DNA of 64,000 bases from Magnetospirillum sp. XM-1 (lineage in GTDB: Bacteria > Pseudomonadota > Alphaproteobacteria > Rhodospirillales > Magnetospirillaceae), in the NCBI RefSeq assembly GCF_001511835.1, contig NZ_LN997848.1:3128001-3192000 (forward strand). The letters run 5' to 3'. Within the stretch, counting starts at the first letter, position 1. Each line of letters opens with the position of its first letter. The translations under genes were made by a program, and so were the position numbers. The notes below the pieces were generated by a model. It was given only the letters and a program-made list of their open reading frames with translations, was not told the origin of the DNA and ran no database searches. Shown here one piece after another: positions 33,990 through 46,165 of this stretch.

Positions 33990-34853
33990 CTAATCCATGA
34001 AAGTCTCCAGCGCGGCCCTGGTCTTGGGGCCGACGACACCGTCCGCGGCCAGCCCGTGCGCCGCCTGGAACGCCTTGACGGCGCGCCTTGTACGGGGGCC
34101 GTCGGCGCCGTCCACCACCAGCCTGGGATCTGCCCCGGCCTTGTTGAGGGCGGTCTGGAGGCGGGCGAGGTCGGGCAGGGCGGCGTTGTTGGCGGTCGGC
34201 CCCGGCCCCTCGGCGGAGGCGGCCCACGCCTTGGCGTACCAGAGCTTACGGTCGTCGAGGCCGTTGGTTCCGCCATTGACCGCCTTGGTGACCGCCACGA
34301 TGTCGTCGGCGTCGGCCTGTGGGTTGATGTTGGCGGCCTGCCAATGGCAAAGGGCGGGCGAAAGCAGATTCTCCGCCTGAATGATCAGGTCGGGATCGGC
34401 GACGCAATCGAGACCGGTCTCCCTGGCCACCTTGGCGTAGTTGGAGCGGCCGGTGGTCTGGAGCACGCCGCGGCCACGGAACAGATAGCCGTCGCCCGCC
34501 TGCGTGTTGCCCAGCTCGGCCGCTTTGGCCGGGTTGCCCTGGCCATAGACCCTCTCGGCCAGGGCCTTGGCGTTGCGCAGCAGGCTAGGCGCCTCGTCGG
34601 GCGTAATCTTGGCGGAATGCCTGCCCACGCCGTATATCTTCAGGAGCTGATCTTGGGTGGTGTAGGTCAGATTCTCCACCAGCAGGGTGCCGCCATTGGT
34701 CTCGTGCATGATCTGGGCGATGAAATGGCAGAGGCGCAGCCGGGTGGTGACGCCATACCGGGCCAATGCGCCGTCCTTGTCGGCGAAGGCCGTCTTGCAT
34801 TCGGCCCGGGCGTTGGGGGCGATGGCGATGGTGATGGATTGCAGTGATGTCAT
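33990..34853 (-). CDS. GH19 endolysin with peptidoglycan-binding domain
   Basis: 287-residue cell-wall lytic enzyme. Residues 1-205 are a glycoside hydrolase family 19 (chitinase/lysozyme-like) domain: HFIAQIMHETNGG with the catalytic Glu, YRGRG-type GYLFRGRGVLQTTGRSNYAKV, and VTKAVNGGTNGLDDR. Residues 225-285 are a PG_binding_1 domain with DGADGPRTRRAVKAFQAAHGLAADGVVGPKTRAAL. This order is typical of phage endolysins. It lies outside the dif-flanked prophage, 437 bases left of its boundary. It may be a relic of another insertion or a displaced lysis gene. Confidence 0.88.
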   Translation of the reverse strand: MTSLQSITIAIAPNARAECKTAFADKDGALARYGVTTRLRLCHFIAQIMHETNGGTLLVENLTYTTQDQLLKIYGVGRHSAKITPDEAPSLLRNAKALAERVYGQGNPAKAAELGNTQAGDGYLFRGRGVLQTTGRSNYAKVARETGLDCVADPDLIIQAENLLSPALCHWQAANINPQADADDIVAVTKAVNGGTNGLDDRKLWYAKAWAASAEGPGPTANNAALPDLARLQTALNKAGADPRLVVDGADGPRTRRAVKAFQAAHGLAADGVVGPKTRAALETFMD

Positions 34854-35280: not shown

Positions 35281-35319
35281 ATACCCATTTGTCGCATAAT
35301 GTATATTTCGGTTAGCCTC
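35281..35319 (+). other. Left dif-like junction (attL)
   Basis: It reads CCATTTGTCGCATAA (XerC-arm side), TGTATA (centre), then TTTCGGTTAGCC. The left half matches dif consensus (CGCATAATGTATA). The right half has lost the TTATG of a XerD arm and presumably comes from the element. Confidence 0.75.
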
Positions 35320-35354
35320 ACAGAAAAACCCAAGATACAGTGTCAATCAAAATG

Positions 35355-35657
35355 TCAGTCGTCTTTAACTCTACGCTTGCGTGTCGGCAGTGTCATCTGT
35401 GCCGAGCGAATGATAGACTTTACCCCCATTAGGGCGTGGTGATCCAGTAGTTTGCCGCGCAGGGGAGGGGCAGGCGGGTTCTGAATCTGATGCGTTAGGA
35501 TGAAGTCTGCTTCCTGCAACGCCTGCATGATGGTTCTGATATGGTTTCTGGCCTCGACCAAGCTGGTCAGCGGTATCTCGATCCGTACCGGGCAGCCGAT
35601 AACGTCTCTATGGGATTGTGATAGCGGCTTCTCCTCGATCTTGGCCTTCTTGCCCAT
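35355..35657 (-). CDS. Hypothetical prophage protein
   Basis: 100-residue protein starting MGKKAKIEEKPLSQSH, with a strong ribosome-binding site GGAGGAAG before the ATG. It has a mixed sequence with a central helix (LVEARNHIRTIMQALQEADFILTHQI) and a basic C-terminus (TRKRRVKDD). No family is recognised. It lies just inside the left boundary on the - strand, downstream of the DUF932 remnant, in what would be the non-structural end of the element. Confidence 0.5.
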   Translation of the reverse strand: MGKKAKIEEKPLSQSHRDVIGCPVRIEIPLTSLVEARNHIRTIMQALQEADFILTHQIQNPPAPPLRGKLLDHHALMGVKSIIRSAQMTLPTRKRRVKDD

Positions 35658-35889
35658 GATCGCTTCCTCCAGATGTGCCGGTAACTGAACCACTGTGATC
35701 TCCAATCGAAGGGTGGGGGAGGCGCTGCAACACCTCCCCCGAGTTCGACTATTCCCGCCCTTACCCCAATAAACATTAAGGGGACAGGGTTTGCCCATGC
35801 CTGCCGCGCATACTCAACCTACGGGCCGCGTTCAGGTTAGGGAGGGCGAGCTTCGCTGGCGCGTCACCGCCAGTTCAGAAGTCCCCGCC
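35658..35889. other. Intergenic gap in prophage left end
   Basis: No gene is supported. It contains a hairpin, GGGGGAGG(35715-35722)/CCTCCCCC(35733-35740), without a T-run. The rest shows no structure I can name. Confidence 0.4.
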
Positions 35890-36575
35890 CTAAGCTGCGA
35901 TGGGAAGCTGTTCCAAATGCTTCCACTCATTGGACTTCAGCATGGAGGCGATCTTAGCCTCGCGCTGGCTGCGGACACGATGCGGCTGGCTGGTCTTGCG
36001 CATGGTGTCTTCGACGTGTGTGGCCCATTCCGTAGCGGCGTTGTAGGCCGCCCACTTGTTGGCACCTACCTCATCGGCGTTGTAGCTCCAGAGGTTCATC
36101 AGGTGCGTCAGGGTGCGGTCGGAATAGGGCGGCATGTCCTGGCCGGTACGCGGCAGATAGGCCAGAGTGTTGCGGAACATCTTCTCGACCTGGCTGCTCG
36201 TGACCCTGGTGTAGGTCATCTGCATCAGTTCATCGCGCATGGTGTCGAACATGGTGATGCCCGAGACGATCTTCTCGACGCTGGCCGTGACCGACAGATT
36301 GATTGTGTGCTTGCGGCGATGGCTGGCGATGGAGTCCAGCACCCAAACACCGTTCAGGCAACGCAGGCGCTTGCCGCCGAACGAGGTTTCGAAGCTCCAG
36401 GCACCGTTGTAGCTGTTACGGAACCGCAGCACCTGAGCCACGGTATCGCCCACGCGAGCGCTGGTGTTGTAGTAGGCAGGCTGATTGGGGCTGTAGCCTG
36501 GGGTAGTGCCGACATCAAACTGACGGTCGGTCAGCATGATCTCCAGTTCCATCATCGCGCCGTTCTCGTAGACGA
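35890..36575 (-). pseudogene. DUF932-family protein, N-terminus lost
   Basis: The C-terminal about 228 residues, from roughly YENGAMMELEIMLTDRQFDVG to LPIAA, follow the DUF932 pattern of phage and plasmid proteins: LRFRNSYNGAWSFETSFGGKRLRCLNGVWVLDS followed by HRRKHTINL and a helical C-terminal part. The usual N-terminal portion is absent. Upstream of about 36575 the frame remains open, but that sequence is the antisense of a + strand phage gene. A deletion or inversion junction is therefore placed between 36565 and 36600. DUF932 function is unknown. Confidence 0.7.
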
Positions 36576-36576
36576 C

Positions 36577-36891
36577 ATGGCCGGTATCATTGCTTCCAAC
36601 ATGAACCTTACCGGCACGTTTACCGCGACCGGCAATGGCAGTTCGGCCCAGGTTCAGCCGGGTCACTACAATGTCTCCATCTGGGGCACCTTTGTTGGGA
36701 CCGTGGTTCTGGAGCGCAGCTTCGACAGCGGCACCACTTGGATTCAGCGCAGCTACGACTACTCGGGCACGGCCATCAGCTTCACCGCTCCGGCCAGCGT
36801 CGAGGTTCATGAGCATGAACTTGGCGTGCTGGTTCGCGTTCGTTGCTCGGCCTACACCAGCGGCACGATCAATTACCGCATCTCTGAATAA
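36577..36891 (+). CDS. Small phage structural protein (beta-rich)
   Basis: Up to 104 residues from the ATG at 36577 (MAGIIASNMNLTG), or 96 from 36601 (MNLTGTFTATG). The repeated small beta pattern GTFTATGNGSSAQV, GTFVGTVVLERSFDSGTTW and VRVRCSAYTSGTINYRI resembles short beta-sandwich proteins encoded next to podoviral tail genes. No ribosome-binding site precedes either ATG, consistent with the 5' region having been replaced at the junction. The gene is probably silent. Confidence 0.55.
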   Translation: MAGIIASNMNLTGTFTATGNGSSAQVQPGHYNVSIWGTFVGTVVLERSFDSGTTWIQRSYDYSGTAISFTAPASVEVHEHELGVLVRVRCSAYTSGTINYRISE

Positions 36892-36902
36892 GGGAGGGGG
36901 CC

Positions 36903-37511
36903 ATGTCCTCCAATCCCGGTCCTCTGGCGATTGACATCTGCAATCAGGCTTCGATTCTGGTTGGCTGCAATCCCATCACGTCCTTCACCGAAGGTACGAC
37001 TGAGGCGCTTGTTGCTGCCGCGATCTACGACACGACCGTAGAGGCGGCTTTGGCGTCTTATCCCTGGCGGTTTGCCACCACCCAGGTCGCTCTGATGAAG
37101 CTGTCTGCGGCTCCTGTTGACGTGAGCTACAGCTACGCCTACCAGCAGCCCAGCGATCTTGTCCTGCCGGTGCGCTGCACCTGGGGCGGCAACCTCGTCA
37201 CCTATGACCGGGTTGGTCAGACCATTGTCTGCAACTCCGATAATTCTGGCGGCACCGATGTTGTGCTAACCTATATCCGCCGCGTGTCTGAAGACCAGTG
37301 GCTGCCTCACTTCAAGCAGGGCGTTCTGTTCGATCTCGCCAGCTTGTTTGCCGAGGCTGTTGCTGGCAGGCAGGATTTGTCGCAGTCGATTATGGCCCGC
37401 GCTCAGAAGGCTTATGCGGTGGCTCGCAGCCAGGAAAGCCAGAGCCAGGCCAATACCGACATCCCGACCAGCATGATTATCCAGAACCGCTTTGGATCGA
37501 GTTCGCTGTAA
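36903..37511 (+). CDS. Phage tail tubular protein A-like (T7 gp11-like)
   Basis: 202-residue protein. The start, LAIDICNQASILVGCNPITSFTEGTTEALVAAAIYDTTVEAALASYPWRFA, follows the N-terminal pattern of T7 gp11-type adaptor proteins that join portal to nozzle. The following YQQPSDLVLPVRC and the Ala/Gln/Ser-rich C-terminal helix (YAVARSQESQSQA) also fit. GGGAGGGGGCC lies before the ATG. Its stop shares one base with the next ATG. This gene looks intact. Confidence 0.65.
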   Translation: MSSNPGPLAIDICNQASILVGCNPITSFTEGTTEALVAAAIYDTTVEAALASYPWRFATTQVALMKLSAAPVDVSYSYAYQQPSDLVLPVRCTWGGNLVTYDRVGQTIVCNSDNSGGTDVVLTYIRRVSEDQWLPHFKQGVLFDLASLFAEAVAGRQDLSQSIMARAQKAYAVARSQESQSQANTDIPTSMIIQNRFGSSSL

Positions 37512-38490
37512 TGGCACGCACCCGGCAGGTTCAGACGAGCTTCAGCTTCGGTGAGATCGACCCGCTGATGGTCGCTCGTACCGATGTGAAGAGCTATCAA
37601 GGTGGCTGCGAGACGGCAACATCACCATGACGCCGAGCGCCCTGTCCGGCTCGATCACGCTCACCCTGTCGTCGTCGTATTGGGTCGCTGGCGATGTTGG
37701 CAAGACTGTCCGCTTCAAGGGCGTGCAGTGCCTTATCACGGGCTACACCAGCGGCACCGTCGTTACCGCGACTGCCCAGTATGCCTTGCCCGATCTATCC
37801 ACTTCCGCGAATTGGGATGAGCCTGCGTTCTCGTCCGCTCGCGGCTACCCCCAGGCTGTCTGCTTCCATGAGCAGCGGCTTTGGCTTGGCGGGTCTACCA
37901 GCATCCCGAATGGCCTGTGGGGTAGTAAATCTGGCGACTTCTACAACATGGACACCGGCACCGCTCTCGACTCCGAGGCGATTGCGCTGTCCTTGTTCTC
38001 CAATGAGTTAGTCACCATCAGCCACTTGGTGAGCTTCCGTCATCTCCAGATTTATACGGATCGTGGCGAGTTCTTCATTCCCGTGCCGTTGGATAGCTCT
38101 CCGACCACGCCGAAGAACGTGAACATCAAGAAGCAGACGCCGTATGGTGCCAGCAGCATTCACCCTGCTGTGCTGGATGGCGCGACGATCTTCATCCAGC
38201 GCACTGGCCGTGTTTGCCGTGAGTTCCTGTATGACTACTTCCAGCAGAACTACGACAGCCATGCCGTTAGCCTGATGTCCACGCATCTTCTAACCGCACC
38301 TGTAGATTTGGATGTGCTGTATGGCACGACAGACAGGCCGGAGCAGTATGCCTTCATCGTCCAGCAGGATGGCTCCGTGGCGGTTTATCACTCTGTCAGG
38401 TCAGAGAAGCTTGCGGGATGGGTTCCGTGGGATACGCCGAACGGCTTGATCCAGTCTGTTGCGGTTGTTGCGGATACGGTCTACTTCAGG
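37511..38490 (+). pseudogene. Tail tubular protein B / nozzle (T7 gp12-like), internally deleted and 3'-truncated
   Basis: The first 33 or so codons, MARTRQVQTSFSFGEIDPLMVARTD and so on, are the typical nozzle N-terminus (tail sheath 'FSFGEIDPLM..RTD..Y..GC'). Near 37606 the frame breaks. From about 37609 another frame continues with a nozzle middle region: GVQCLITGYTSG..WDEPAFSSARGYPQAVCFHEQRLWLGGS..GSKSGDFYNMD. At about 38488 this frame also stops making sense, where the giant downstream gene takes over. A full nozzle protein is near 800 residues; only about 330 remain in two frames. Confidence 0.7.
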
Positions 38491-41400
38491 GCCACATCTC
38501 CGAGGCTGAATATGCTGCGGTGTCCGAGCGCCTCCAGCATTTACCGCCTGAGATTACCGAAGGGTCTATCCTCCGAATTTTCGATAAGGATATGGACTCG
38601 GCGGCTGGATCGCAGGGGCGTTACAGCATCGCCAATGACTGGATCAATGTCTCTATTGAGAATGCTCGCCTTGGAAGCGATGGAAGCCCTGATGGATTTG
38701 CCAAGGCGTTTACGCATGAGGTCTTTCACAGGGCCCTGAACTTCACGCTTGATGTGGAGCGGTCCAAGTGGCTTTCGATTTGGAGGGCTGACCCTACGGG
38801 GATCGGTCGCTCAGCTATGGATATGGCTTCCGAGATGGTCGCTAATCCCGCCATCTCAGCCGTGAAGATGTTCGACGATCTCAGTTACCGCTTGAGCCCG
38901 AATGAGGCGTTTGCCAATTCAGGGATGCGCTTTCTTGATGATGTCGTTACCGGGCGATACCAGCCTGGGTCCGCGAAGACTGGTGTCTACGGTTATCTCG
39001 ACGATATGTTCAGGAGGGCAAAGCAGGTTATTGGCCTTGCCCCAAAAGAGAGCCAGCGCGCGGTTGCCAACAGGTTCATGGATCAATTCATGCAGCGCAT
39101 TCGCCAAGATGGCGCTATGCTGCCGAATGCTGACATGAGAGAGGCAATCTACGGTGCTTTTGAAGCGCATGGCCGCGAGATGGCGATCAATCTGCTGCTG
39201 GATGCAAGTGGCGCTCTACAGGGCTTGTCTGCCGAAGCCTACATTCAGGCCACCAGACAGCTTGGAGCGGAACCCGAAATGCGGGTTTCATCCATCGTTC
39301 AATCCGCCGACAACTTCCTCGACTCAGATAAGCTTATTAGAAAAGAGACTTCAATCGCTCCGACTGGCATCGGGCTTGAAAAGTGGAACTGGTCGCCCTG
39401 GCATTGGGCTATGGGATCGGTGTCTGAGAATGTTCGGAATATCGCGGAACGGCTTGTAGCTACTCCCGGCCTGAAGCTCACGAAGAACATGAGCTTGGAT
39501 GCGCATGGCAATGTTCAGGCTCCGCAGCCCATGGTTCGTTCGGTTGAAACTTCCATCAACGTGAATTGGAGGCCGAAGCTTTCCAATGGCCTCCAGGCTT
39601 TGCGCGAGTCATGGCTTGAGCAGCGTGGCGCTGGGCTTGCCAACCCGAACTTTGAATCGCTGAAGCTTGGGGCTAAGGACCTCGCCGCTAAGGTCACTGG
39701 CTCACCTAAGCCAGGGCTGAGCTTTGATGAGTTCAAGGGGGAGGTGGCCCGCGCCATGTTCTCCTTCGATCAACATGCCGATCCGCATGTCCAGGCTGCC
39801 GCCGCCAAGCTTCGCCCAATCTTCGATGAGATTGGCGAGACTGCTGCCAAGGAAGGCGTCTTCTCATGGCAACAGCGCCGCTTGCTGCGCGAGCTTAACG
39901 CCGATCTCGACAAGGAGCTTGGCCTCAAGAGGACTGAATCATTCGGCCTTACTGAAGACCGTACCGTTACGCTGACTGACCACACCATGACGCCTCATGC
40001 CCAGAAGCTCACTGAGCAGATCGCGGCGCTTAAGGCCGAGATTGAGCATATCGACGGAGGCGGGTGGCGCGAAGACGCTAAGGTCAAGGGTGAGTCTTGG
40101 TTCCCCAAGTTGCTTGACCGTCAGACCATCATGCGCAACGCCGAGGATTACAAGGGTATCGTCCGTTCATACTTCAAGAGCATCGGGATTGTTGGCGATG
40201 AGCTTGAGGCTGCCGTCAAATCTCATTTCGATAAGGTAACGAAGCGCACTGGGTATGTGGATTTCTTCGACGATCCGGTTAACTCCCCTCGCTCGGCCAA
40301 GGCTCGCGAGTGGGAAATCCCTGCCAGCATGGTGATGAACTACATCGATACCGATGTGGAACGCATTCTCCACCGCTATGTGTCTCAGATGGGCGCGGCC
40401 ATTGAGGTGTCTCGTGCGTTCGAGGGGCACCTCGATCTGAAGCCGATGCTGGATAAGGTCAAGCTCGACTACGACGCGGCGCTTCGTGAGGCTGGCGGCG
40501 AGGTGTCTGCGCTTGAGCGCCTGAACAAAGAGTATGTTCAGGACAAGGAAGCCATCCTTGCCATGCGCGATATGATCTTTGGAACGCATAATATCCCGGC
40601 TGATCCCGACGCATTCCACACCAGGGCATTCCGGTCCATGAAGGTGCTGAATGCCGCATCCATGCTTGGCGGCGTTGTTCTGTCGTCGCTGTCTGACGTT
40701 GCGCGCCCCGTTATGACGGAGGGCCTGACTAAGACCATGCGCTATGGCATCGACGCTTTCATGATGGATAAGGCGCTCTACAAGCTTTCAGCTAACGAGC
40801 TTCATGCTGCTGGCATTGCCAACGAGCTTTGGACACACACCCGCGCTGCAAGCTTCTCCAACTGGAATGAAATCTGGTACGGCGGCACCAAGCTTGAGCG
40901 GGGCATCGAGAAGATCGGCAACGTCTTTTCCATGGCGTCCGGCCTGTCTCAGTGGACTGACATTGCCAAGACAGTCGCGGGCACCGTTATCGGGAACCGC
41001 ATCCTCGATGACTGCCTGCTTCTTGCTGAAGGCAAGCTGTCTGCTAAGGCTACTGAAGACCTGGCTCGTGGTGGCATTGGCGTCAAGCAGGCTAAGGCCA
41101 TTGCGAAGATGACCGAGGAACACGCCGACGTTCTGACCAATAAGGGCTGGTTCTCTGATGGGTCGCATGTGTCGATCTGGTCCGCTGTTGAGCATATGAG
41201 AGAGAAGGGCGGCAGCCTTCTGGCTAATACTGACAAGTGGACCGATGCCGAGGCTCGCATGGCCTTCAGGTCCGCCCTGTATGAAGACACGAATCGCGCT
41301 GTTGTGACGCCTCATATTGCGGATCGCCCGCTCTGGGTGTCCACTGAACTCGGCGGCATTCTCGGGCAGTTCAAGGCATTTGGCATGTCGTCTACTCAGC

Positions 41401-41951
41401 GCATTATGATGGCTGGCCTTCAAGATCGTGACGCTAAGTTCTGGGGTGGTATGGCTGCGATGACTGCCGCTGGCATGTTTGCCAACGCTATCAAGGATGC
41501 CATTCAGCGCAACGAGAACTGGTTTGATCGTCCTTGGCAGGACAAGCTTGTTGACGGCATGGACCGTTCTGGTCTGCTTGGGTCTTTTGGAGACATCAAC
41601 AACCTCGTTGAGCGCCTTAGTGAGAACCAAGTGAGCCTCAATGCTCTGCTTGGCGATGACAGCCGCAAGCATACGAGTTCCGTATCAAAGTGGGGTGCCC
41701 TCGGCCCTGCCCCCCAGCAGATTGCCAGGGCGTTTGCGATGGTTGGCGATCTTGGTCGAGGCGAGTTTGGCGAAGCTGGCTCCAACTTCCGCCGCCTCGC
41801 TCCACTGGCTGGCCTGTGGTATTTCCAGCCTGGTATTCATGCCTTGAATGGGATGGCGACGATGGTCGATGGCCCATCACATGGGATGTACAATCCGGCG
41901 TCCTACGGCATGGGTCTGGATGCCCAACCAACATTCAATCAAGTGCATTGA
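38485..41951 (+). pseudogene. Giant phage ejection-type virion protein with zincin motif, N-terminus missing
   Basis: About 1150 residues remain, beginning GHISEAEYAAVSERLQHLPPEI at 38490. The 23 codons before that belong to the nozzle gene in another frame, so the true N-terminus was deleted. Near the start FTHEVFHRAL carries an HExxH zinc-peptidase motif. The rest is long and helix-rich, with charged segments and a few hydrophobic stretches (VLNAASMLGGVVLSSLSDVARP; FWGGMAAMTAAGMFANAI). This fits podoviral internal/ejection proteins that carry enzymes into the host. An ATG at 38418 keeps the frame open, so a fusion product is possible. Confidence 0.65.
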
Positions 41952-42006
41952 TGGTGTAAGCACCTAACAACCATGCTCCCCCTAGAATCCACTAGGGGGA
42001 CGCCCC

Positions 42007-43287
42007 ATGTCCACACCCGTCACGAATATCCCGACGACCATCTCTTATTCGGTCGGGTCTTCTCCCAGCACTGGACCTTTCGCGGTCCCGTTTGCTTTCT
42101 TCTCGACTTCTGACCTTATCGTCTATGTCGGGTCTTATACTCCGAAGACCATTGGCACTGATTATACTGTGTCCGGCACTCTGACCGGCGGTGGCTATCC
42201 CGATGGCGGGTCTGTCACTCTGACTGCTGGCGTGTCGAACACTTGGGTCGTTATCACCCGCAGCGTTCCGATCCAGCGCGTTACCCAGCTTCCGGTGTCT
42301 GGCAAGTTCAACATCGACCAACTGAACCAAGACCTGAATGTGTCGTATGCCATTGCCCAGCAGAACAAGACTGCTGCGGACAATGCGATCCATATTCCTG
42401 TCGATGACTATTCTGCGGCTCCGACGACCGTTCTGCCTAATGTCGCGGGGCGAGCGGGGAAGGGGCTTAAGTTCGACTCGTCTGGCAATGTGACTGTGAC
42501 TGCCGTTGACCCTGACGATGCGATTAATACCGCCGCAGCCTCTGCCGCCGCCGCGTCCGCATCGGCTTCTGCCGCGTCTGCGTCTGCTTCAGCGGCCAGC
42601 ACATCGGCTTCCAATGCCGCTACGTCAGCTACGAATGCCACGACCAATGGCGCGGCCCAAGTCACCCTAGCTGCTGCCCAGGTTGCTCTCGCGACCACTC
42701 AGGCGACCAATGCTGCAAACAGCGCGTCCGCTGCCGCCGCATCCGCCGCTGCCCTGCCGAACGCATCTGCCATCGGTTCTGGCAAAGTCCCTCAGTCGAA
42801 CGGCACGACTTGGACTGGCGTTACTGCGCTGGTTTCCGCCGACATCGGCTCCACGGTCCAGGGCTACGATGCAACCACCCTCAAGTCAGCTGCTATCGGC
42901 TCCACGGTCCAGGGCTACGACGCCACGACCATGAAGACCGGCGCGGTCCAGACGATGACCAAGGCCCTTCGCGGCACCCCGGTATCGCTGACCAGTTCCT
43001 CGGCCTCCATCGCCACGGATGCCTCCGCCTCCAATTACTTCACCCACACATTCACCGAGAACACCACCCTGGCTAACCCGTCCAATCTGGCGGCTGGTCA
43101 GGAAGGCGTGATCGTGTTCACCCAGCACGCCAGCAGCCCCAAGACCTTGGCCTATGGCTCGTACTGGAAGTTCTCCGGTGGCACGGTGCCGTCCGTCACG
43201 GCGACCAATAGCGCGGTGGATGTGCTGGTCTACTACGTGGAGAGCGCGACCCGCATTACCGCCAAGCTCCTGACGGACGTTAAGTGA
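42007..43287 (+). CDS. Phage tail fibre protein (T7-type N-terminal domain)
   Basis: 426-residue fibre. Residues 1-140 follow the T7 tail-fibre attachment domain: ISYSVGSSPSTGPFAVPFAFFSTSDLIVYVG, DYTVSG, VVITRSVPIQRVTQLPVSGKFNIDQLNQDLNVSYAIAQQ. Residues 170-255 are an Ala/Ser/Thr-rich stretch typical of a trimeric fibre shaft. A 53-base duplicated block gives IGSTVQGYDATT twice near 280-300. The C-terminal 110 residues form a short beta-rich tip. It overlaps the next gene's ATG as TGATG. Confidence 0.75.
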   Translation: MSTPVTNIPTTISYSVGSSPSTGPFAVPFAFFSTSDLIVYVGSYTPKTIGTDYTVSGTLTGGGYPDGGSVTLTAGVSNTWVVITRSVPIQRVTQLPVSGKFNIDQLNQDLNVSYAIAQQNKTAADNAIHIPVDDYSAAPTTVLPNVAGRAGKGLKFDSSGNVTVTAVDPDDAINTAAASAAAASASASAASASASAASTSASNAATSATNATTNGAAQVTLAAAQVALATTQATNAANSASAAAASAAALPNASAIGSGKVPQSNGTTWTGVTALVSADIGSTVQGYDATTLKSAAIGSTVQGYDATTMKTGAVQTMTKALRGTPVSLTSSSASIATDASASNYFTHTFTENTTLANPSNLAAGQEGVIVFTQHASSPKTLAYGSYWKFSGGTVPSVTATNSAVDVLVYYVESATRITAKLLTDVK

Positions 43288-44690
43288 TGCTGGGCGCGGC
43301 ACTCCTCCTCGCCGGTGACGACAGCTACAGCATCACCAACAGCGCCCGGTTCAACGGCACCAGCGACTATCTCAGCAAGACCCTGACCACCAGCGCGACC
43401 ACCTCCGGGTCAATCTGGGTCAAGCGGTCCAAGCTGGGCGCAACGTCGCCGATCTTCGACAACAAGGTGTACTTCACGAGCGGAGACGCGCTGTACGCCT
43501 TCGGCCTGACCAGCACGGCTCTCTACCGCGACCCGTCTGCGTGGATGCACATCTTCTGGAATGGCACGGGCGTCTACGTCAACGGCACGCTGGTCACTGG
43601 CACCGGAAGCTACACCGCTGCGTCCGTCACCAATCCCCGCCTAGGGTATGACGGGACCAATTACTTCTCGGGTCATCTGTCGGACTTCGCGTTCTGGAAC
43701 GGCTCCTCGGCCAGCCTCCAGGGCGGCGCGGCTGATGCGAATGGAGTGTGGGTGCCCCGTCGTCCGTCTGCCGGTTATTCGTTCCTGGCCTTCGGCTCGT
43801 CCGGCGCTCTCGGCACTGATACCTCGGGCAATGGGAACTCGTTTACTGTCAACGGGTCGCCGGTACAGACCACCGATACGCCGACGAACAACTACTGCAC
43901 CTTCAACCCTCTTTCCAGTGGGTCAGTCACTCTCTCAAAGGGTAATACGGCTGCTGACGTAAGCACGTACACACAATTAGCACGCGGGACCATCGGTGTT
44001 TCCGTGGGCAAGTGGTATTGGGAGTACAAGGGGGACGGCTCTACGACATACCTATGCTGTGGCGTTATTGACGCATCTCGTTTGCAGGACACAGACCCTA
44101 CGGCGGCTCCGAACGGGTACTCATACTACGGGCACACCGGAGTCGTGTACAATAACGGGTCGTCGTCTGCTTATGGTGCGACTTACGACAATACACACAC
44201 AATCGGGTGTGCTCTTGACCTAGACGCATCTCCGCCGACACTAACATTTTACAAGAACAATGTCAGCCAGGGCGCAAAAACAATAAACTCAGGAGTTACG
44301 TATTTCCCCATGTTCAACGAGCAAGGGACATACGCTGGGGCTACGTTTAACTTCGGCGCGACTGCCTTCGCCTACACCCCGCCTAGCGGCTTCCTGGCCC
44401 TCTGCACCGCCAACATGACCAGCGCGGCTGTAACCACCAGCGGAACCTTCACCGGCAACGCTTCGGCTGACGGCCCCTTTGTCTGGACGAACGGGAACCC
44501 AGCAACGCTGACCATTAACGGAAACGCTGTGACGTTCGGCACACATGCTGACAAGACGGCTGGCGGCTTCAAGCTGCGCTCGTCCTCGGCCAGCTACAAC
44601 ACGAGCGGCTCAAACACTTGGACGGCTACGGCTGGCAAGCGGTTCGTCTATTCCGCCACCTCCATCAACAATGCACAGGGGAACCCGTAA
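43287..44690 (+). CDS. Phage adhesin with LamG-like and SPRY domains
   Basis: 467-residue virion surface protein. Residues 15-145 look like a LamG/concanavalin domain (ARFNGTSDYLSKTL, GSIWVKRSKLG, HIFWNGTGVYVNGTLVTG, HLSDFAFWNGSS). Residues 185-370 follow a SPRY domain: NPLSSGSVTLSKGN, KWYWEYKGDGSTTYLCCGVIDAS, YSYYGHTGVVYNNG, IGCALDLDASPPTLTFYKNN, YFPMFNEQGTYAGATFNFG. A third beta region follows. It probably recognises a host surface structure. The start ATG overlaps the tail-fibre stop, and its own stop overlaps the next ATG. Confidence 0.75.
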   Translation: MLGAALLLAGDDSYSITNSARFNGTSDYLSKTLTTSATTSGSIWVKRSKLGATSPIFDNKVYFTSGDALYAFGLTSTALYRDPSAWMHIFWNGTGVYVNGTLVTGTGSYTAASVTNPRLGYDGTNYFSGHLSDFAFWNGSSASLQGGAADANGVWVPRRPSAGYSFLAFGSSGALGTDTSGNGNSFTVNGSPVQTTDTPTNNYCTFNPLSSGSVTLSKGNTAADVSTYTQLARGTIGVSVGKWYWEYKGDGSTTYLCCGVIDASRLQDTDPTAAPNGYSYYGHTGVVYNNGSSSAYGATYDNTHTIGCALDLDASPPTLTFYKNNVSQGAKTINSGVTYFPMFNEQGTYAGATFNFGATAFAYTPPSGFLALCTANMTSAAVTTSGTFTGNASADGPFVWTNGNPATLTINGNAVTFGTHADKTAGGFKLRSSSASYNTSGSNTWTATAGKRFVYSATSINNAQGNP

Positions 44691-45187
44691 TGGCTCTCTA
44701 CTACATTCCCGGCGCGAGCTTCCCTGATGGCACTCCCGCTGATTACATCGACTCGTCCGAGGGCTTTGTCCTCAACGAAATCCAGTATCCCCGATACTAC
44801 CTTGACCGCTCAGAGCTTGATGGAACGACCCGCTGCACTTTCGAGGTGTGCCCGTTCGATGGAACCGAATACCTCATCACGGAACATCGCAATGGCCCTG
44901 TGATTGGCTGGGTTGGCACCCCGCGCAGCCCGGATGAAGTGTTGGTGCTCAAACGTGCTAATGCGAGGGCAGCCGCCCTGGCCGAGATCGACCGGCTGGA
45001 GCGCTCCATCACCGACCGCATGTGGCGTGAGGATGCTGTTGGCTCCACTGCGCTGATGGAAATCAAGAAGCAGGACGAGAACGGCGATTGGGTGGTGGAC
45101 ACCGACGACCCCCGCACTGGCAAGACGGCCACGCAGTACATCGCCTACGTCAACTCGGCCATCGCCAATATCCGTGCGGGGCTGTAG
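44690..45187 (+). CDS. Hypothetical phage protein near tail genes
   Basis: 165-residue protein starting MALYYIPGASFPDG. The N-terminal part is beta-rich. The C-terminal part has a helical ANARAAALAEIDRLERSITDRMWREDAVG segment and an ending QYIAYVNSAIANIRAGL, resembling the tail-fibre-assembly/chaperone-like proteins often encoded after fibre genes. No family can be named with confidence. It is translationally coupled to the adhesin gene (TAATG) and followed by an AAGGAGG site for the next gene. Confidence 0.5.
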   Translation: MALYYIPGASFPDGTPADYIDSSEGFVLNEIQYPRYYLDRSELDGTTRCTFEVCPFDGTEYLITEHRNGPVIGWVGTPRSPDEVLVLKRANARAAALAEIDRLERSITDRMWREDAVGSTALMEIKKQDENGDWVVDTDDPRTGKTATQYIAYVNSAIANIRAGL

Positions 45188-45200
45188 CAAGGAGGTTCCC

Positions 45201-45464
45201 ATGTTTTCGTTTTCTGACGCCCTGAACCACCTCAAATCCGGCAAGAAGGTCGCCCGATCCGGCTGGAACGGAAAGGGTATGTTCGTGTTTCTTGTTCCCG
45301 GTAGCACCTTCAAGGTCAACCGCGCCCCGTTGCTCGGCATCTATCCAGAAGGGACCGAAATCAACTATTGCCCCCATATCGACATGAAGACCGCCGACGA
45401 CAAGATTGTGCCCTGGCTGGCCTCGCAGACCGATGTGCTGGCCGACGACTGGACCCTGGTGTGA
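45201..45464 (+). CDS. tad2: DUF2829 protein, Tad2-type anti-Thoeris
   Basis: 87-residue intact protein of the DUF2829 family. The family features are MFSFSDALNHLKSGKKVARSGWNGKGMFVFLVPGSTF, the central YPEGTEINYCPHIDMKTADDKIVPW and the ending ASQTDVLADDWTLV. Phage members named Tad2 bind the Thoeris signal molecule (a glycocyclic ADP-ribose isomer) and block this defence. Function here is inferred from the family. AAGGAGG lies 6 bases before the ATG, the best ribosome-binding site in the prophage. The next gene overlaps its stop (GTGATG). Confidence 0.85.
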   Translation: MFSFSDALNHLKSGKKVARSGWNGKGMFVFLVPGSTFKVNRAPLLGIYPEGTEINYCPHIDMKTADDKIVPWLASQTDVLADDWTLV

Positions 45465-45790
45465 TGGCTACTGCTCTCGTCATCCTCTGGGCAGTTCTCG
45501 GCGGTCTCTGGAGGCGCATGTTCGGCGGCTGGACCGGCCTGCCCCGGTCCATCTGCTACGCGCTCATGGCCCCGCTGACACTGCCGATATGGCTTGCTCT
45601 TCCGTGGGGGGTATATTGGCCCTATAGCGTCATTGCGGGAATTGGCAGCACCGCCCTCTGCCTGCTGTTCTTCGTGGTCAGCCTGTATCCCGGCGGCAAG
45701 TTCACCGACGACCGAGACGTTCTGCTGAAATACGGCCCCTTCGGTATCGGCTATGTCCTGGCCCACCGCTTCTGGCGTGACGAGTGGAAC
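45464..45790 (+). pseudogene. Phage small membrane protein, C-terminus lost
   Basis: The first about 109 residues, MATALVILWAVLGGLWRRMFGGW through FWRDEWNRG, contain three hydrophobic stretches (about 2-15, 33-48 and 52-72), consistent with a small inner-membrane phage protein. From about 45790 the frame reads SRLCWRP to a stop, which is the antisense of a converging - strand gene. The natural C-terminus has therefore been replaced. Such proteins are found in related phages next to DUF2829 genes, but I cannot name a function. Confidence 0.5.
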
Positions 45791-45794
45791 AGGG

Positions 45795-45998
45795 GAAGCC
45801 GCCTTTGCTGGCGACCTTGATTAAGCCCATCTCCTTGAGGCGGCGTAGGCGTCTGTTGATGGCGCTGTCGTTGGTCAGGCCGGTTCCAGCCATCAATTCG
45901 GCGTTAGACGGGCATATGCTGTTGTTGGCCGCGCACTCAAGCAGGATCTCGTAGATCGCGGTGTCTTCGACAGGAAGCTTTTTCGGTGCTGCGCTCAA
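45795..45998 (-). pseudogene. Winged-helix DNA-binding protein remnant, C-terminus lost
   Basis: About 68 residues with a clear winged helix-turn-helix: VEDTAIYEILLECAANNSICPSNAELMAGTGLTNDSAINRRLRRLKEMGLIKVASKGGF. The start is uncertain; TTG at 45998 with AAGG before it fits, and GTG at 46067 keeps the frame open. After GGF the reading frame runs through antisense of the phage membrane protein, marking a junction near 45795. It was probably a phage regulator reading toward the virion genes. Confidence 0.55.
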
Positions 45999-46130
45999 TT
46001 GCCTTGACTCCCGGTATTGGCGTGTCGTGTCTATAGATAGACATGAAGCTGGTGGGGAGGGCTTCACAGAGGCTAACAGCTACATCTGCTAAGCCATTGA
46101 ATCTAGCGCACGGTAATAATGTTGCGTAGG

Positions 46131-46165
46131 CTCATGTCGCATAATGTATATTATGACGACGAATG
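46131..46165 (+). other. dif site / right junction (attR)
   Basis: It reads ATGTCGCATAA (XerC side), TGTATA (centre), TTATGACGACG (XerD side). The core CGCATAATGTATATTATG is identical to the core of the E. coli dif site as I remember it. It lies 12 bases before the end of the MBL gene. XerC and XerD should resolve chromosome dimers here, so it marks the replication terminus. Confidence 0.8.

Follow-up and report, generated by a model that had tools for sequence, protein, structure and literature searches.

The remnant of a podovirus-like prophage occupies dif, the chromosomal site at which the cellular recombinases XerC and XerD act in chromosome separation, in Magnetospirillum sp. XM-1. It lies in the window analysed here, i.e., the whole stretch of 64,000 nucleotides that corresponds to positions 3,128,001 to 3,192,000 of contig NZ_LN997848.1 (assembly GCF_001511835.1), and all coordinates below are those of the window. 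Since the virus sits exactly in the XerC/XerD site, it probably borrowed the recombinase of its host rather than using its own, and the element is likely to be a decayed podoviral prophage that host XerCD inserted, the catalysis being read from the sequence of the site.

Repeat, attachment sites, and the empty site

The element is bounded by an exact 18-bp direct repeat, TGTCGCATAATGTATATT, both copies of which are on the plus strand (35290-35307 and 46135-46152), and no third copy was found in the window at up to three mismatches. The repeat is comprised of most of the XerC arm of dif, the central TGTATA, and two further bases. Its right copy runs on as TTATGACGACG, the XerD arm of dif in the prophage-free relative G010, and its left copy as TTTCGGTTAGC, which agrees with that arm at 4 of 11 bases. 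The boundary features are the following:

35289..35316, plus strand: attL, consisting of the chromosomal XerC arm, TGTATA, and a phage-derived degenerate XerD arm (homology of the left flank to G010 stops at 35307)
46134..46161, plus strand: attR, consisting of the phage-side XerC arm, TGTATA, and the chromosomal XerD arm, together a complete dif (homology of the right flank to G010 from 46135)
35308..46152, no strand: inserted element of 10,845 bp, absent from G010 (flank comparison and GC content in 1-kb steps)

The attP predicted from these junctions is identical to the dif of G010 at 10 of 11 positions of the XerC arm, at all six of the centre, and at 4 of 11 of the XerD arm. The dif sequence CGCATAATGTATATTATG occurs as a single copy in each of the other genomes of the genus that were searched (16/16); in the genome of the window it is intact at the right copy of the repeat, with a two-mismatch variant at the left copy. 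A complete dif thus persists after integration, in the form of attR, and the host therefore kept a dif. The dif of Magnetospirillum magneticum AMB-1 is printed with its position in PMC2731167; the dif of G009, a genome of the same genus, is the same sequence at an agreeing position, the printed form being its reverse complement. The printed AMB-1 dif differs from the dif of G010 and from attR in one or two outer bases.

In G010 (locus L030), both flanks of the window join at one dif, and 10,845 bp were therefore inserted there. The left flank is 74% identical to G010 over its last 0.37 kb and 88% farther out, with the alignment ending at 35307, and the right flank is 89% identical over 3 kb, with the alignment beginning at 46135. 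The locus is also compact in G013. In 1-kb steps, the GC content is 0.55-0.62 within the element versus 0.61-0.71 outside it.

The first-pass annotation of this DNA, made from the letters and their open reading frames (ORFs), had described an exact 18-bp repeat around some 10.8 kb with phage tail genes in a Magnetospirillum-like genome, had read the repeat as the XerC arm and central hexamer of dif, extended at its right copy by a XerD-like arm, and had proposed comparison with a prophage-free relative. These points are borne out by the shuffles given below, by the one such dif in each of the 16 genomes, by the agreement of the right copy with the dif of G010, and by the position of the G009 dif, and the empty-site breakpoints lie at the repeat rather than elsewhere. 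A longer or other att repeat was not seen, homology to G010 stopping at the repeat. It is extremely improbable that the repeat is a coincidence or that an illegitimate insertion took place near dif: the boundaries of a degraded element could in principle have shifted, but the breakpoints against G010 agree with dif to the base, and none of 100 dinucleotide shuffles contained a match to TGTCGCATAATGTATATT, which rules out a chance repeat.

Gene content of the element

Homologues of gp11, gp12, and gp16 occur in podoviral order, with gaps, when the element is compared with the podovirus contigs L066 and L067, which agrees with a podovirus having a T7-type tail. The ORFs are the following:

35355..35798, minus strand: ORF of 147 aa, no family above cut-off (ORF list, Pfam scan)
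35890..36816, minus strand: DUF932 ORF lacking the N-terminal part of the domain (PF06067, E 2.5e-14, profile positions 59-221 of 227; phrog_1221)
36903..37511, plus strand: gp11-like tail tubular protein A, 202 aa, apparently intact (phrog_394, E 3.4e-35)
37511..37630, plus strand: frameshifted N-terminal fragment of a gp12-like protein (residues 8-62 of the L067 gp12 match 37508-37690)
37627..38739, plus strand: central part of a gp12-like tail protein (phrog_376, positions 259-509 of 712, E 2.1e-55)
38418..41951, plus strand: gp16-like internal virion protein ORF, 1177 aa (phrog_16310, E 4.1e-92; phrog_342, E 1.5e-49)
42007..43287, plus strand: tail fibre-like protein (phrog_1640, E 2.4e-10)
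43287..44690, plus strand: SPRY-domain virion protein (PF00622, E 5.8e-9; phrog_19943, E 5.3e-34)
44690..45187, plus strand: ORF of 165 aa, no family match (Pfam and PHROG scans)
45201..45464, plus strand: small protein with a Thoeris anti-defence 2-like (Tad2-like) domain, kept in the remnant (PF11195, E 1.1e-27)
45464..45820, plus strand: ORF after Tad2 that looks hydrophobic by eye and matches neither a family nor a phage (Pfam and PHROG scans)
45702..46067, minus strand: winged-helix DNA-binding-like ORF just inside attR (phrog_3502, E 9.4e-6; PF13730, E 6.8e-5, below cut-off)

The earlier description as a podovirus-like remnant with tail genes stands, with the amendment that these genes are broken: gp12 is split, and gp14, gp15, the start of gp16, and part of gp12 were not found in the element by comparison with L066 and L067. 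Homology of the central gp12-like ORF ends near 38487-38598, and the N-terminal part of the gp16-like ORF was lost or fused. The element ORFs scanned include no recognisable gene for a terminase, a portal, or a capsid protein, the L066 and L067 versions giving no match, and no single-subunit RNA polymerase gene, the mark of Autographivirales, was present among them; the early region seems to have been lost. As the related phage genomes measure 32-39 kb, about two thirds of the phage may be lost. The gp16-like ORF also contains THEVFHRAL, an HExxH-like metallopeptidase motif noted by eye.

With regard to relatives, a 9,575-bp fragment in IMG/VR (L050) corresponds to part of the element, namely 35890-45464, and reaches neither att site. 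The gp11-like protein is 84% identical to one protein on a 1.3-kb contig and at most 50% to all others. Homologues of gp11, gp12, or gp16 at about 26-41% identity occur in the Pelagibacter phages Hodr (39-41% in gp11 and gp12) and HTVC010P, in ctHz2215, and in Vibrio phage 1.254.O; ctHz2215 and 1.254.O are comparable in the order of head and tail genes. Unlike the element, Hodr and ctHz2215, searched whole, match the dif core at best with three mismatches in 15, and 1.254.O has no CATAA-N6-TTATG. A scrap of about 400 bp in G011 (L058:9642-10040), away from dif, is 45% identical to residues 247-348 of the gp16-like ORF.

Outside the element, a lysozyme/chitinase-like ORF with a peptidoglycan-binding-like end (33990-34853, minus strand; named by eye) adjoins dif; the stretch aligns with G011, and G010 lacks it at this place.

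Other elements at dif in the genus

In G011, the same anchor genes enclose a XerC arm, TGTATA, and a degenerate XerD arm and, 11.2 kb farther on, a complete dif that points the same way. One ORF of this element (L062 and L063) belongs to phrog_28223 and weakly resembles viral coat proteins (STIV) in PDB (E 0.26). The element also encodes a transglycosylase and an ORF whose PHROG carries a terminase label, and it is probably a non-tailed prophage with a capsid-like ORF. AMB-1 (G009; L060 and L061) has a similar left site and DNA related to that of G011 at dif, its complete dif being inverted relative to the left site in an inverted-repeat arrangement. PF00589, the tyrosine integrase family, has no match in the dif stretch of either genome.

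These elements bear on whether another Xer-using element, such as a plasmid, an island, or a tailless phage, brought some podovirus tail genes into dif of XM-1, which is judged quite improbable. The ORFs at both ends of the element match no podovirus compared, relatives of the DUF932 protein (24-25% identity) are carried by four Vibrio/Aliivibrio plasmids, and the element at dif in G011 is of a tailless type. On the other hand, gp11 to gp16 follow podoviral order, with gaps, and the layout, with minus-strand genes on the left and plus-strand late genes on the right, resembles that of the podovirus ctHz2215. Moreover, the element has no blastn match to the dif stretches of AMB-1 and G011 beyond the flanks and dif, and its end proteins have no match there.

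Recombinases and the mode of integration

Pfam searches of twelve ORFs, eleven of them inside the element, recognised no recombinase of the tyrosine or serine type, and none of the 37 PF00589 matches in the genome falls in the window, in agreement with the earlier statement that there is no integrase inside. XerC- and XerD-like genes are present in the genome, both scoring below the NCBIfam cut-offs. The absence of an integrase carries little weight, given how much of the phage has been lost and that one related phage record (L066) has such a gene.

In the proposed course of events, a circular podovirus genome would have carried a dif-like attP with a host-like XerC arm and TGTATA and a degenerate XerD arm. 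This attP would have recombined with chromosomal dif via host XerC/XerD to give attL, which is degenerate in one half, and attR, which is a complete dif. The intact phage would have had no integrase, and later internal losses would have removed the genes for packaging and the head, gp14 and gp15, part of gp12, and the start of gp16. Support comes from the exact repeat, the single dif of the 16 other genomes, the empty site in G010, the TLC-like att pattern, the lack of a recognised recombinase in the element, and the XerC- and XerD-like genes of the genome. It also comes from the G011 element, which has no PF00589 match and shares both the dif and the polarity of the element in the window, and from free podoviruses with Xer-like sites whose tail genes belong to the same PHROGs (see below).

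Several observations weigh against host-mediated integration. With so much of the phage lost, an integrase may have been lost too; 1 of the 10 related phage records (L066/G677) has a PF00589 protein; and in G014, of the same genus, dif is adjoined by a 22-kb element that has two PF00589 ORFs. A search at up to one mismatch did not find the left junction in any of the other 384 genomes of the class, and no contig of the viral collection contains it exactly; no intact relative of the element was found at dif in either set. The nearest gp11 relatives show no excess of dif-like sites over controls: they contain 4 at up to two mismatches versus a shuffle mean of 7.7, and ten whole related records contain 18 dif-like sites at up to three mismatches versus 16 for the reversed pattern. 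Finally, six ORFs near the element ends have no tblastn match among the loci compared. Paired dif half-sites were also sought in 297 genomes of the order: 204 match, ten of them with at least two matches, and two half-sites on one contig were seen only in the genome of the window among the matches listed, which do not include the two of G509. This search was run at one mismatch and therefore misses the left sites of G011 and AMB-1.

The G014 element (L064 and L065), which also encodes an ORF of 3,181 aa, keeps alive the alternative that the phage used dif as attB for its own tyrosine integrase, whose gene was then lost in the internal deletions. This course is considered unlikely. The integrase of L066/G677 fits it, a gp16-like prophage stretch in AMB-1 lies 5-11 kb from three PF00589 matches, and an 18-bp common core would suit an integrase as well. 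However, the common block is the XerC arm plus the central hexamer, with divergence in the XerD arm, which is the pattern of the TLC type; the G011 element, free of PF00589, lies at this site with matching polarity; and PF00589 has no match in 9 of the 10 records of related phages, some of which may be fragments.

Dif-like sites in free podoviruses

A scan of the viral collection for TCGCATAATGTATATT returned at least 120 stretches, and in 67 of the 80 loci listed the motif is continued by ATG, as in real dif. One of these loci, L217, encodes an Sf6-like small terminase (TerS). The TerS family collected with it is represented by the best 80 of 124 relatives (IMG/VR contigs, loci L365-L444), 74 of which have enough sequence. 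In this family, TTCGCATAA-N6-TTATGTTAA occurs within 700 bp after TerS. Over the 18 arm positions in the 74 loci, which were not dereplicated and for which the arm consensus was picked after viewing the family, there are no mismatches in 35, at most three in 67, four in one, and six in six. By comparison, 70 upstream regions all have at least six mismatches and 74 shuffles at least five (none within three). The arms are conserved and the central hexamer is variable, with 20 different hexamers.

In L375 and L403 the site lies between TerS and the large terminase (TerL). The gene order of L375 is TerS, site, TerL, portal, major capsid protein, gp11 (phrog_394), and gp12 (phrog_376); the last two belong to the same PHROGs as the tail genes of the window, gp12 being about 29% identical. 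To judge from these sites, free podoviruses may use dif-like sequences for integration or for resolution of genome multimers, and the variable centres would be compatible with either use.

A second motif was found in a family of phages with a RecE-like exonuclease (IMG/VR contigs L285-L347). TGTCGCATAATRTATA occurs within 700 bp upstream of RecE without mismatch in 53 and with one mismatch in 4 of 86 loci, a set that includes seeds and duplicate contigs. The other 29 lack it (one at two mismatches and 28 at five or more, two of these having no upstream sequence), and downstream controls, where sequence exists, have at least five mismatches. Where a contig reaches TerL, this protein is podovirus-like, 43-46% identical to the L066/Hodr type, and five contigs (L302, L327, L330, L337, and L338) have both the exact motif and TerL. 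CGCATAAT and part of TATA served to select the sequences for a column profile of the family, whose invariance is therefore partly by construction; the 86-locus count was relied on instead.

The role of the RecE motif is uncertain, because 17 of 80 loci have repeated copies (at up to two mismatches) and several contigs encode a serine recombinase nearby, some of them repeating TGTCGCATAATRTATA upstream of it. The motif could equally be a promoter or operator, as its copies lie almost always on the same strand as the genes that they precede. It is not claimed as an attP, in view of the multiple copies, all but one of which are on the RecE strand, and of L337, where the motif runs against the direction of the late genes, which is not so for the att sites of the window.

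Taken with the TerS-family sites, it is plausible, at a little short of even confidence, that host-Xer use is a regular life-style of integrase-less podoviruses with a T7-type tail and that the window presents one of these phages in its integrated state.

Comparison with known Xer-using elements and significance

Integration of the TLC type leaves a complete dif, and GGI is a genomic island. TLC-phi has a XerC arm and centre as in dif and a degenerate XerD arm, Cf1c and GGI being related, and it depends on filamentous phages, as described in PMC4246890. With integrative mobile elements exploiting Xer (IMEX) in general, of which the TLC type is one class, the element has in common its place at chromosomal dif and the complete dif left after integration. 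The att sites of the window share with this class the dif-like XerC arm and centre, the degenerate XerD arm, and integration at dif. The relatedness to filamentous phages that marks the class is absent: TLC-phi relies on such phages, whereas the cargo in the window is a podovirus remnant with tail genes. For Jorvik and NO16, which are non-tailed double-stranded DNA phages, XerCD use has been proposed (PMC10589892 and PMC9966536). The likeness lies in a double-stranded DNA phage with a dif-like att, Jorvik having no predicted integrase in that account; the difference is that these phages are non-tailed, whereas the element encodes podoviral tail proteins.

In the portions of the literature covered, the phages that use Xer are filamentous or non-tailed, and tailed prophages of Vibrio with mapped sites relied on integrases of their own (PMC11630473). 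No description of a tailed phage at dif was found in the literature searched, which was covered mostly at title level and thinly for subscription journals. The podovirus-like remnant at dif is real, and its novelty is that of a tailed phage where filamentous or non-tailed ones were known.

If host-mediated integration is correct, Xer hijacking would extend to tailed double-stranded DNA phages, which would suggest a route to temperate life for podoviruses without an integrase. The dif-like sites in free podoviruses mean that Xer use can be examined by simple recombination assays, and lifestyle prediction based on integrases could miss such phages.

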